NCBI RefSeq assembly: GCF_013046825.1
Contig: NZ_CP053187.1
Location: forward strand, 2,266,001-2,330,000
Source of the DNA: Turicibacter sanguinis
GTDB taxonomy: Bacteria > Bacillota_I > Bacilli_A > MOL361 > Turicibacteraceae
Direction: 5' to 3'
DNA length: 64,000 nt
The notes under the pieces are model-generated. The model saw only the letters and a program-made list of their open reading frames with translations, searched no databases and was not told the DNA's origin. Each line of letters begins with the position of its first letter. Position 1 is the first letter of the stretch. Positions 9,525 through 23,967 of this stretch are shown piece by piece. The position numbers were made by a program, and so were the translations under genes.

Positions 9525-9552
9525 AACTCGCATTTGCGAGTTTTATTTTTTT
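9523..9552. terminator. Convergent terminator
   Basis: AAAACTCGC / GCGAGTTTT around ATTT, followed by a T-rich run on the plus strand. The stop codon of the minus-strand LRR gene lies inside it. Confidence 0.85.
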
Positions 9553-11075
9553 CGTCGTTTTAAACAAATCCCCGTTCCAATACTTAAGGCTCCTAGAGGG
9601 AGGAGAATACTTGAAAGTCCAGTTTCAGGAGCGATGCGAGGTCCCACTTGAACTGTAACGGTTTTAGACGTTGTCGAACCGTAAGAATCTGTGACTTCAA
9701 AGGTTAAGCGATACATTCCAATTTGAGTTAAATCAATGGTATTTTCTTTTAATTGAATCCATTCAGTAATATCACCATCTTCTTCATCGTAGGCCGTTAC
9801 GTAATCCATTGGATCAAATAGTTGGTTGAGCTCAAGTTGTAGTGGATCATCGATGATTAAAATTGGAGCAGCGTTTCCGTTGAATTGAAGTGGAATCATC
9901 ACTTGACCACTAAATAGGGTTGAAGCTGCACCAAGGCTGACTGCCTGTTCAAAAGTGAAAGATTCATACTGAGCTTGCCAAACATTAAGCCAGTTAATTG
10001 TATGTTCTGTTTCTTCATAGTACCCGTTATTTGAAATGGTTACCGGCGTGATGAAAGCAGAATCTAAATCATGAATTGGATTAAGTAAATGTGCATTTTC
10101 ACCAGAAAAGACATTTAATCCACTTAAAGTAATACGTTGTTGCATTAAGTTAAGTTCTGTTAATTTTGTTAGCGTCATGAGGGGGCTAATATCTTGAATG
10201 CTATTATTTGATAGACCTAATTTTGTTAAGTTAATAAGTGAAGAAAGCGCCGATAAATCATTAATTTGATTGTAATCAAGATAAAGAACACTTAATCGAG
10301 TGAGAGAGGCTAAGGCATTTATAATTTTAATATGATTGTAGGATAAGTCAAGAGCATTTAAATTGATTAAGGTCGCAAGGGCAGAGATATCTTCGATTTG
10401 GTTACGATCAAGTGTTAGGGTTATGAGGTTTGTTAAGTTGCTTAAGCCAGAAATATTATAAATTTGGTTATGATCAAGTGTTAATTCAGTTAAATTGCTT
10501 AAGGTGTTTAAACTAGAAATGTCAACAATCTCGTTGTCAGCTAAATGAAGCATCTGTAAGTGAACAAGTTGATGTAAAGGACTGACGTTACGAATAGTGT
10601 TATGAGATAAGTGCAGTTCTTGTAACTTATTTAAAGAAGCAAGAGGGGATAAATCTTGAATTTGATTGTTTTCAAGATAAAGGTTTGTCAGTTTTGACAA
10701 AGAAGCAAGAGGAGAAAGATCTTGTATATCGTTATAAGATAAATCTAGACCCACTAGATTTACACATTCTTCTAAACCAGTAATGTTTGTGATTCCTTTA
10801 TGGTCTAAATAAAGAATGCCGGTGAAACTTCTTAGTTGACCTTTTGTAATGTCAGCACCTGATGATTGTCCAAGCTCTGCGTTAATCGCAGCTTTTAAGG
10901 CGGGATCAGGGATGTTGACAATTTCATTACGATCAACAGATGTATCCTCAATTCTTGGGTATTGTTTAGGAGAGTAATCGGCTTCATCTGTATGAGCTAA
11001 AACTGAGGGAGCCGATATAGCTAAAAGACAACAAAAACAAAGGGTAAATAGACTTGAGTATTTAAAATTAACCAT
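9543..11075 (-). CDS. Secreted leucine-rich-repeat protein with sortase-like anchor (internalin-like)
   Basis: 510 residues from the ATG at 11075, chosen because GGATGG precedes it; the upstream ATG at 11087 has no ribosome site. A signal peptide ends near SVLAHTDEA. Residues about 75-300 are roughly ten 22-residue leucine-rich repeats of the SDS22/internalin type (L..L.L..N.I.DISPL). A DUF5011-like Ig fold near residues 400-470 has DEEDGDIT and VTDSYG. The C-terminus is APETG, a hydrophobic helix and KRRKK, which matches a sorting signal except for A in place of L. It is probably wall-anchored and involved in surface contact. The ligand is unknown. Confidence 0.85.
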   Translation of the reverse strand: MVNFKYSSLFTLCFCCLLAISAPSVLAHTDEADYSPKQYPRIEDTSVDRNEIVNIPDPALKAAINAELGQSSGADITKGQLRSFTGILYLDHKGITNITGLEECVNLVGLDLSYNDIQDLSPLASLSKLTNLYLENNQIQDLSPLASLNKLQELHLSHNTIRNVSPLHQLVHLQMLHLADNEIVDISSLNTLSNLTELTLDHNQIYNISGLSNLTNLITLTLDRNQIEDISALATLINLNALDLSYNHIKIINALASLTRLSVLYLDYNQINDLSALSSLINLTKLGLSNNSIQDISPLMTLTKLTELNLMQQRITLSGLNVFSGENAHLLNPIHDLDSAFITPVTISNNGYYEETEHTINWLNVWQAQYESFTFEQAVSLGAASTLFSGQVMIPLQFNGNAAPILIIDDPLQLELNQLFDPMDYVTAYDEEDGDITEWIQLKENTIDLTQIGMYRLTFEVTDSYGSTTSKTVTVQVGPRIAPETGLSSILLPLGALSIGTGICLKRRKK

Positions 11076-11194
11076 AATAATTCCCATCCTTTATTCAAAA
11101 TATCTATGTTATTACGTTTTGCAAAGAACGGTGATTTATTCGAGATTTTAAAAGAAAGTGTCGAAAAAAATCTGAGTCATTCAGTTGAAAAGAA

Positions 11195-11224
11195 TTGACT
11201 AAAAAATAATTGTTAGCATATACT
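11195..11224 (+). promoter_or_regulatory. Promoter of the ABC-F leader
   Basis: TTGACT (11195-11200), 18-base spacer, TATACT (11219-11224); predicted start near 11231, giving a leader of about 277 bases before the ABC-F gene. Confidence 0.7.
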
Positions 11225-11230
11225 GTTATT

Positions 11231-11507
11231 AATAATCGAACAATGAGGTGAAAACATGAATACAGTTCTTAACTAATTGAAAAATCGCAAAAGCATAATC
11301 GGTTTGTTCGTGAGAATGCCTCACATTTTTTGTTATGCGTTGCGACATTAGTTAAGAAATGAATGGACACACCTTAAGGTCAGAAAACTTTTTCGTTGTC
11401 GATGAATCATTTCATCGATTTTTTTTATTGTTTTTGAAAAGAGCTTAACTAATGGTTAGCAACTCAATGATGGAAACCGATTTCAAAATCATAATCGGGG
11501 CGATAAA
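11231..11507 (+). promoter_or_regulatory. Ribosome-mediated attenuator of the ABC-F gene
   Basis: The leader contains a six-codon mini-gene, then nested hairpins: TCGCA/TGCGA and GCATAA/TTATGC enclosing GTGAG/CTCAC with six T. A second hairpin TCGATGAA/TTCATCGA with eight T (11399-11426) follows. TTCTTAACTAAT inside the mini-gene (11266-11277) is complementary to ATTAGTTAAGAA (11347-11358), and the latter can instead pair with CTTAACTAATG (11444-11454). This is the layout of drug-sensing attenuators seen before antibiotic-resistance ABC-F genes: a ribosome stalled on the leader peptide changes which hairpin forms. Confidence 0.7.
11256..11276 (+). CDS. Leader peptide MNTVLN
   Basis: ATG at 11256 with GAGGTG eight bases upstream, six sense codons and TAA. 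Its 3' half overlaps the first arm of the attenuator pairing, so ribosome occupancy would control folding. It is far too short to have another function. Confidence 0.65.
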   Translation: MNTVLN

Positions 11508-13070
11508 ATGCCAAAGATACGTATTTTGAATGGTTCGTTTCATTATCCTAATACGAATCAGTTAGTATTTGAAGGATTAAATTTAGATATTGAGGCCACA
11601 TGGAAAAGTGGAATCGTTGCTAGAAATGGAATGGGCAAAACGACATTGTTAAAATTGATTCATGGAGATTTGAAGTTAACAACAGGAGACTGCCAAAAAG
11701 AAATTGAAACAGCCTTTTTTCCGATTACGTTTAAGCATTCTGATGGGGTTGTCCTTGAATTAATGAAAAAAGAAATTGGCCCTTATGTCGAATGTGAACA
11801 AGTCATGGCCGCTTTTTTACAAGGGGAGGCATCTGAAGAAGATTATTACGAGGCGCTTAACACCTACTTAGAATATGATGGGTATGAGATTGAAAGTAAA
11901 ATAAAAAAAGAAATTCATCGTTTAAATCTTTCAGATGATATCTTATCAAGAGAATATGAGACGCTAAGTGGTGGAGAGCAAACGAAAATTCAAATGGTTA
12001 TTCTATTTTTTAGGCCGCAGACTTTCGTGTTGCTAGATGAGCCAACGAATCACTTAGATAAAGAAGGGATTGAGCAACTGTCCAATTATCTAAAATGTAA
12101 ATCGGGATTTTTATTGGTTTCTCATCATCGTCATTTTTTAGATGCGTGTGTGGATCATATTATTGCTTTACAGGGCCATTCTGTCGTGGTTCAACAAGGA
12201 AATTACAGTTCATATGAATATGATTACGAGTTGAAGAGGGAGTTTGAGTTAAAGCAACGAGACAAAATTGAAAAAGATATTCGCCGTCTAGAGGAAGTCG
12301 CCAGAGATCGACGTAATTGGTCAAATGCGCGTGAGAAAGAAAAAATTGGAGCCGGTGATAAGGGATTCGTCAGTCATCGAGCAGCTAAAATGATGAAGCG
12401 TGCATTACATGTGGAAAGACGTATCGATCAACAATTACAGGAGAAAAAGGAACTCATCAAACACAAAGAACATATTCCGTATTTAAAAATTACTCAACAT
12501 CAGCAAGTATCCGTACTTTACCAAGTGTCACATTTAAATGTTTCATATGGGGATAAGATGATTTTACGAGATATAAGCTTTACGCTTGAAGCAGGAGAAC
12601 GCCTGGTTATTGAAGGCCCTAATGGAAGTGGGAAAACGACATTAATTAAGAGTTTATTAGAACAAATTCCATACGACGGGATGATTAAACGTGATAATCG
12701 AGTAAAGGTGGCTTATGTGTCTCAATTTCCGAAGTATCAGTCTGGATTTTTGCGTGATATTTTGCAAATTGAACAACTTGAAGAAGCACGATTTAGAAGT
12801 ATTTTAGGAGCACTTAGTTGTCATCGTGACATTTTTTTGCGTGATTTATCAAGCTTTAGCTTAGGAGAATTAAAAAAGGTTGAGATGGCTAGAAGTCTTT
12901 ATAATCCGAGTCAGGTTCTTATTTGGGACGAACCGCTGAATGGACTTGATATATTAAGCCGAAAAGCGATTGAAGAGGCGATTTTACAATCTGAACCAAC
13001 CATGATTTTTATTGAACATGATGAAACATTTATCGAAAAAATCGCCACCAAACGCTTAGTACTTTCCTAA
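11508..13070 (+). CDS. ABC-F ribosomal protection protein, Lsa/Vga-type
   Basis: 520 residues with two ABC ATPase domains and no membrane segments. Domain 1 has Walker A ARNGMGKTT, signature LSGGEQTK and Walker B LLDEPTNHLD. Domain 2 has GPNGSGKTT, FSLGELKKVEMARSL and WDEPLNGLD, a second-domain form typical of the Lsa group. The charged linker between domains (about 240-320) is the part that reaches the ribosome. Members protect ribosomes from lincosamides, streptogramin A and pleuromutilins. The attenuator leader supports a drug-induced resistance role; the actual spectrum cannot be read from the sequence. Confidence 0.88.
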   Translation: MPKIRILNGSFHYPNTNQLVFEGLNLDIEATWKSGIVARNGMGKTTLLKLIHGDLKLTTGDCQKEIETAFFPITFKHSDGVVLELMKKEIGPYVECEQVMAAFLQGEASEEDYYEALNTYLEYDGYEIESKIKKEIHRLNLSDDILSREYETLSGGEQTKIQMVILFFRPQTFVLLDEPTNHLDKEGIEQLSNYLKCKSGFLLVSHHRHFLDACVDHIIALQGHSVVVQQGNYSSYEYDYELKREFELKQRDKIEKDIRRLEEVARDRRNWSNAREKEKIGAGDKGFVSHRAAKMMKRALHVERRIDQQLQEKKELIKHKEHIPYLKITQHQQVSVLYQVSHLNVSYGDKMILRDISFTLEAGERLVIEGPNGSGKTTLIKSLLEQIPYDGMIKRDNRVKVAYVSQFPKYQSGFLRDILQIEQLEEARFRSILGALSCHRDIFLRDLSSFSLGELKKVEMARSLYNPSQVLIWDEPLNGLDILSRKAIEEAILQSEPTMIFIEHDETFIEKIATKRLVLS

Positions 13071-23259: not shown

Positions 23260-23763
23260 ATGACAAAAGTAATTAATGTGATGGGTCAAGGTTCGAATGT
23301 TGGAAAAACAGACTTGATGGAAGGACTCATTCAAGAGCTTAAAACGCGAGGATTAAGTGTTGCAACCGTGAAACACGATGTACATGGTTTTGATATCGAT
23401 CATAAAGGTAAAGATACTTACCGTCATCGTGAAGCGGGCGCAGAAACGGTTATTATCTCTTCAAAAAAGAGATTTGCAATGATTAAAGAAGTAGAAGAAG
23501 AAATAAAGTTAAACGATATTTTGAAGTTATTAAAAGATAAAGATATTATTTTGGTTGAAGGCTATAAAAAAAGTCCTTTAAGAAAAATTGAAGTCTATCG
23601 TGAAGGATTTAGTGAAGGGATTCTAACACCGGAACATTTATTGATTGCGATTGCTTCTAAAACAGAGGTTTTAAGTGAATCTCATTTAGTGATTGATAAA
23701 GAAGATTATAAGTCGTTAGCAGATTTAATACTGCAAGAAAAAGAATTTGAATTTGAAGAATAA
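23260..23763 (+). CDS. mobB: Molybdopterin-guanine dinucleotide biosynthesis protein MobB
   Basis: 167 residues. The P-loop GQGSNVGKTDL (residues about 8-18) and the sequence VKHDVHGFDIDHKGKDTYRHREAGA are typical of MobB, a GTP-binding partner that assists MobA in attaching GMP to molybdenum cofactor; ILVEGYKKSPLRKIEVYR is the second conserved patch. The ATG at 23260 fits AAAGGAG (23247-23253); the ATG at 23254 is too close to it. First gene of the cofactor cluster, behind the Crp/Fnr-type promoter. Confidence 0.93.
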   Translation: MTKVINVMGQGSNVGKTDLMEGLIQELKTRGLSVATVKHDVHGFDIDHKGKDTYRHREAGAETVIISSKKRFAMIKEVEEEIKLNDILKLLKDKDIILVEGYKKSPLRKIEVYREGFSEGILTPEHLLIAIASKTEVLSESHLVIDKEDYKSLADLILQEKEFEFEE

Positions 23764-23774
23764 TTGAATAATTT

Positions 23775-23967
23775 TCTTGAGTATAAAAGGTCCTAAGGAA
23801 GTAAAATCTAAGGCATTTATACCTGAATCTAACAAAAGATTCACAGGGTGATACTTGAAAAAGTATGATCTCCACGTTTTGGGAAGGAAAATCAGTAGAG
23901 TTTATATAGATTTATATAAGCTTATTGCTCATGCCCAAAAATGGGTGGATGTAATAAGCTTTTTTTG
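23775..23967 (+). promoter_or_regulatory. Structured leader with terminator between mobB and moeA (candidate riboswitch)
   Basis: The 228-base gap between mobB and moeA contains CCTAAG (23792-23797), a hairpin TGAATC/GATTCA (23824-23843) and a hairpin ATACTT-GAAA-AAGTAT (23851-23866) with a perfect GNRA loop flanked by AGGG and CTCC. It ends with a long terminator, AAGCTTATT / AATAAGCTT plus seven T (23918-23967), just before the moeA ribosome site. An ordered fold plus terminator ahead of cofactor genes is what a molybdenum-cofactor riboswitch would look like, but I cannot confirm the consensus by eye. Confidence 0.5.

Follow-up and report, generated by a model that had tools for sequence, protein, structure and literature searches.

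A gene for an ABC-F protein in Turicibacter sanguinis is separated from its divergent neighbour by a leader with several features of a regulatory RNA, which raises the question of whether this leader controls the gene and by what signal. The initial annotation had read it as a leader-peptide attenuator ahead of an ABC-F gene of Lsa type. Our analysis covered the window, i.e. the 64-kb stretch of DNA to which all positions refer unless another record is named; it is one place in a 3.0-Mb single-contig genome, in which the leader is present once. The results support the attenuator, one arm of which overlaps the upstream open reading frame (uORF), and we consider it likely that the leader attenuates transcription under the control of a ribosome, as in the VmlR/CplR type.

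The ABC-F gene and the elements of its leader

The gene at 11508-13070 (plus strand) codes for a ribosomal-protection-like protein of 520 amino acids. Its product passes the ribosomal protection-like ABC-F model NF000355 (423.5 bits, cut-off 380) and fails the Lsa family model NF000167 (464.9 bits, curated cut-off 750), with which the protein of its nearest relative, L005, scores 441 bits and Lsa(B) 848 bits. The best match among solved structures is LsaA (7nhk, E 1e-94), and both ATP-binding domains appear intact from the sequence. In a quick version of a protein tree, the window protein and L005 (same family, 57% identity) form a branch beside all other Lsa-like proteins. Judged by these sequence comparisons, the gene codes for an intact ABC-F protein of the ribosomal-protection kind, and of the earlier assignment to the Lsa type a likeness to Lsa stands, while membership of the Lsa group does not. 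The relationship to Lsa suggests that the drugs concerned would be pleuromutilins, lincosamides and streptogramin A. The gene was absent from all four other genomes of the genus that were searched, two of which hold a more distant Lsa-like gene.

The leader sits between this gene and a divergent gene (9543-11087, minus strand) for a 514-aa leucine-rich-repeat protein, which has repeats of the internalin-like type, a signal-like N-terminus and a C-terminus (APETG, a hydrophobic stretch and RRKK) resembling a cell-wall sorting signal. Rfam gave no match over the leader; elsewhere in the window, a molybdenum cofactor riboswitch was found at 23762-23905 (RF01055, 56.9 bits).

At the start of the leader lies a sigma-70-type promoter, TTGACT-18-TATACT (11195-11224), with 10 of 12 consensus bases, the number of such promoter-like sites being, alone, no higher than in shuffles; the transcript start was estimated near 11232. 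The six-codon uORF with its own ribosome site that had been annotated ahead of the ABC-F gene is present: a Shine-Dalgarno (SD) sequence GAGGTG (11245-11250) leads the uORF MNTVLN (ATG AAT ACA GTT CTT AAC TAA, 11256-11276). In the terminated RNA this SD is predicted to be hidden in a helix of 11244-11250 with 11370-11376 (P 0.98-0.99 without a ribosome). The 3' end of the uORF is also arm 1 (11266-11277), the 5' strand of an anti-antiterminator whose 3' strand is arm 2 (11347-11358), and the two form a perfect 12-bp helix that lies above all 200 shuffles. This first stem continues through 11285-11290:11340-11345 and 11293-11298:11333-11338, and its tip is a weak 5-bp hairpin (11310-11324) with a U6 run (ATTTTTT, to 11330). 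Downstream follows an intrinsic terminator (11398-11427) with a 9-bp stem (11398-11419), a TCAT loop and a U-tract, which ends 80 nt before the ABC-F start codon. Beyond it lies arm 3 (11444-11454), a copy of arm 1 (the 10-mer CTTAACTAAT is found at both 11268 and 11444) that gives 11346-11356 an alternative partner. Finally, a predicted hairpin, CCGATT/AATCGG (11477-11498), overlaps the start of the SD of the ABC-F gene and points weakly to a possible second, translational layer.

The leader RNA (11233-11428) folds with -52.6 kcal/mol, compared to -36.2 +/- 3.9 for shuffles (z -4.27), and none of 200 shuffles was as good. Both U-tailed hairpins of the initial annotation (11310-11324 and 11398-11419) were recovered, where 0.1 were expected in shuffles, and only the second is read as a terminator. 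The first was rejected in this role, having just 5 bp and forming the tip of the first stem; by analogy with relatives, of which many have a U-tract shortly before arm 2, and with VmlR, 11310-11330 is probably an RNA polymerase pause element.

Modelled switch between terminator and antiterminator

In the switch model, a 32-base ribosome footprint was masked at each codon and the probability of the terminator was computed. Without a ribosome, the terminator at 11398-11419 formed with P 0.97-0.98, and with the ribosome masked on the start codon this value was reduced to 0.07-0.10. Under this mask, from -15 to +16 around the uORF AUG, an antiterminator of GAAATGA (11356-11362) with TCATTTC (11407-11413, located within the terminator loop and its 3' side) rose from 0 to 0.89. 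Ribosomes placed one and two codons past the start gave terminator probabilities of 0.59 and 0.71, and stalls further downstream gave 0.9 or more, except for 0.88 with the footprint over 11322-11353. When the start-codon mask was applied to the growing RNA, the antiterminator reached P 0.99-1.00 at lengths 11413-11416, ahead of terminator formation. When the stretch between uORF and terminator was shuffled and both elements were left as they are, an equal switch arose in only 1 of 400 cases, and among the 23 uORF-terminator pairs tested across the window only the leader pair switched. The leader has an anti-antiterminator overlapping the uORF and an intrinsic terminator downstream of it, and in the model, dependent on the assumed footprint, an antiterminator replaces the terminator under a uORF-bound ribosome.

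The switch did not hold under all assumptions. At equilibrium, a helper helix (11234-11239:11415-11420) contributes to the win of the antiterminator, and it is abolished by a footprint reaching -20 or by a transcript start at 11238. Without it, the two states are near even in minimum energy (-35.5 vs -34.9, 0.6 kcal/mol apart) and the terminator dominates at full length (P about 0.9), so that read-through would then rest on folding order. A wider footprint also tips the energies towards the antiterminator for stalls at later codons, and the model therefore does not fix the exact stall codon.

The three arms had been annotated with coordinates that proved exact to within a base, and their pairing requires a different reading. 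With a ribosome at the AUG, arms 2 and 3 pair with P 0.99 once the RNA extends to 11507 or beyond. Since arm 3 is 3' of the terminator, this pairing cannot decide termination and could act only in read-through RNA, and it was rejected as the antiterminator; according to the model, this is likely 11356-11362:11407-11413 instead. The pairing could serve control mainly at the level of translation, in which arms 2 and 3 and the hairpin at 11477-11498 would govern access to the ribosome site of the ABC-F gene and the terminator would be secondary. Such an arrangement gains some support from a competitor of the SD hairpin (11297-11304:11475-11482) that reaches P 0.6 and from the second layer of this kind in VmlR and CplR (PMC9226507, PMC10201436). 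However, the predicted accessibility of the SD shows no clear rise on stalling, and the terminator is strong and well formed, so that we regard mainly translational control as unlikely.

For transcription attenuation, the sequence, the pairings and the modelled switch form the basis from which we infer the inducing drugs, the stall site, pausing at 11310-11330 and actual read-through. In the absence of drug, the ribosome would clear the six-codon uORF, arm 1 would pair with arm 2 as the anti-antiterminator, the terminator at 11398-11419 would form, and transcription would halt ahead of the ABC-F gene. A pleuromutilin, lincosamide or streptogramin A would hold the ribosome on the start codon of the uORF or close to it, where it would cover arm 1 and leave arm 2 free. 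The 3' end of arm 2 (11356-11362) could then capture the terminator loop and its 3' side (11407-11413) before the terminator is complete and, with this antiterminator formed, RNA polymerase would read through into the ABC-F gene. That the stall occurs at or near the start codon and that the inducers belong to these three drug classes is probable by analogy with VmlR, CplR and the ARE5 genes. The initial annotation had considered that the inducing drug or the stall site may be new, of which we found no sign: the model switches best, in a mask-dependent manner, at the start codon, the site at which these three drug classes act on the known leaders of ABC-F genes (PMC9226507, PMC12421871).

Related leaders of Lsa-like genes

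L005 also has a leader, with the uORF MYKFS-stop and a 12-bp helix of arms 1 and 2. These two closest leaders were aligned by eye (GGGGTGGCAGGATGTATAAATTTTCTTAACAATTG in L005, GAGGTGAAAACATGAATACAGTTCTTAACTAATTG in the window), as MAFFT misplaces the uORF. The window has one T fewer than L005 in the run before CTTAAC, which shifts its frame to V-L-N, and from this alignment MNTVLN looks like a one-base frame change of a leader of the M-x-x-F-S type. Beside the shared CTTAAC, the stem shows a compensatory change, T:A in the window and A:T in L005. In the calculation with a masked start codon, L005 showed no switch. A leader pattern search in eight related genomes matched L005; the pattern as written missed the leader of the window itself.

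About 40 more distant Lsa-like ABC-F genes were found to have leaders of the M-x-x-[FIV]-S-C type (for example at L040, L049, L054, L070, L105 and L108), with peptides such as MYKFSC, MKNISC, MYSFSCR, MKTVSY and others. In the distant leaders, arm 1 is at the uORF end and arm 2 is its complement, and in most of them the terminator uses a copy of arm 1 for its 3' strand. Across 42 leaders, with the register of arms 1 and 2 chosen by complementarity, each of the eight core positions was paired in 38-42, with several pair types (e.g. TTTCCTGC/GCAGGAAA, CTCCCGCA/TGCGGGAG and TTTCTTAC/GTAAGAAG). Compared to shuffles, the helix had p <= 0.05 in 27 of the 42 leaders; the window and L005 were among the 10 with p <= 0.005. 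At most 22 bases before arm 2, 25 of the 42 have a U-run (T5 or TTNTTT), where shuffles gave 8 on average and 17 at most, in agreement with polymerase pausing of the kind demonstrated for vmlR. When the start codon was masked in the same calculation, about 40% of the relatives lost the terminator. On the Lactobacillus amylovorus plasmid p2 (L116), a uORF MRL with a TTG start lies ahead of an ABC-F gene, with a pairing of TAATCTTG and CAAGATTA downstream of it, and looks like another such leader.

Lineage specificity, which had been suggested for both peptide and fold, fits the peptide, as MNTVLN was found in this genome only; the three-arm plan recurs in L005 and in about 40 distant ABC-F genes. 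A peptide confined to one genome might also be expected if the leader were unregulated, with a short ORF that arose by chance between the divergent genes and a terminator of the ordinary kind. The shuffle and window-wide controls, the homologous leader in the nearest relative and the same plan in many relatives all argue against this, and make it very improbable.

The peptides themselves bear on a further explanation, that a specific combination of drug and peptide stalls elongation within the uORF, since M-x-x-[FIV]-S-C has been kept by relatives over a wide range of bacteria. However, codons 4-6 read V-L-N in the window and F-S-stop in L005, and the window peptide is without the motif. Moreover, the RNA arms alone can account for much of this, given that arm 3 has the same bases and is non-coding. 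In the model of the window leader, stalls beyond the third codon give a poor switch under the mask from -15 to +16 (though not under a wider one), and sequence context matters little to this class of drugs (PMC10201436). Peptide sensing in the window is therefore quite unlikely. As a tentative and rather doubtful proposal, the Lsa-like genes in Firmicutes of the gut may share with plasmid-borne lsa(E) an unreported ancestral M-x-x-F-S-C leader whose nascent peptide would contribute to drug sensing. The window lineage would have slipped out of frame and would depend on stalling at the start codon and on a third arm that has moved. A text search of the literature, which covered few subscription papers, gave no mention of MYKFSC-type peptides as ABC-F leaders, and the novelty of the family is unproven.

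The MYNFSC leader at L064 (G470:C14) precedes a gene whose protein is identical to Lsa(E) in 482 of 494 residues. In the Enterococcus faecium plasmid pTT39_p3 (L118, NZ_CP023426.1), where the uORF lies at 644-664 of that record and lsa(E) starts at 1007, uORF and terminator are intact, and masking the start codon lowered the terminator probability from 0.98 to 0.01. Among 111 plasmid records matching this leader, 102 cover at least 80% of it, mostly with 90-95% identity, which led us to reject the view that the lsa(E) leader is usually lost to IS1216. At least one record (L114, NZ_CP131803.1) lacks the leader attenuator, with the end of IS1216 lying about 190 bp upstream of lsa(E). No description of lsa(E) control was found in the literature searched. 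If lsa(E) does share the leader plan, its expression would be inducible, which bears on the reading of resistance in tests. The unreported FSC leader family is, as a by-product, more useful than the window leader itself.

Comparison with known ABC-F leaders

The leaders of VmlR, CplR and the ARE5 genes work by attenuation of this kind (PMC9226507, PMC10201436, PMC12421871), and toeprints on two Streptomyces ARE5 leaders were located at the start codon (PMC12421871). Published uORFs of ABC-F leaders are MIN (vmlR), MR[I/M] (cplR), MK[L/Q] (vmlR2) and, as a prediction, MAGN (lsaA) (PMC9226507, PMC10201436). Like the Bacillus subtilis vmlR leader, in which lincosamides and pleuromutilins cause stalling at the start codon (PMC9226507), the window leader has a short SD-led uORF within the anti-antiterminator, a pause-like hairpin, a terminator and a hairpin at the SD of the gene. 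It differs from it in the uORF, which is MNTVLN and not MIN, in the sequences of the arms, in the position of the pause-like hairpin at the tip of the first stem, and in preceding an Lsa-related gene instead of VmlR. With the Clostridioides difficile cplR leader, which is induced by retapamulin and lincomycin (PMC10201436), it has in common a uORF hidden in the first hairpin and a terminator, but the cplR terminator hairpin itself contains the SD of the gene, whereas the window terminator ends well before the start codon. The closest ABC-F family with a reported uORF is that of lsaA (PMC10201436), from whose predicted peptide the window peptide differs.

The M-x-x-[FIV]-S-C leaders, including that of lsa(E), share with the window leader the SD, a uORF end that serves as arm 1, a U-tract before arm 2 and a terminator; most of theirs use a copy of arm 1 as the terminator's 3' strand, and in the window this copy lies downstream of the terminator. 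One leader plan is, by this comparison, spread over Lsa-like resistance genes, among them the widespread plasmid gene lsa(E), and what is probably a diverged example of drug-sensing control is added to the genome of an intestinal commensal. In plan, the window leader conforms to the known kind; its peptide, the antiterminator that it would use and the site of its arm 1 copy set it apart.
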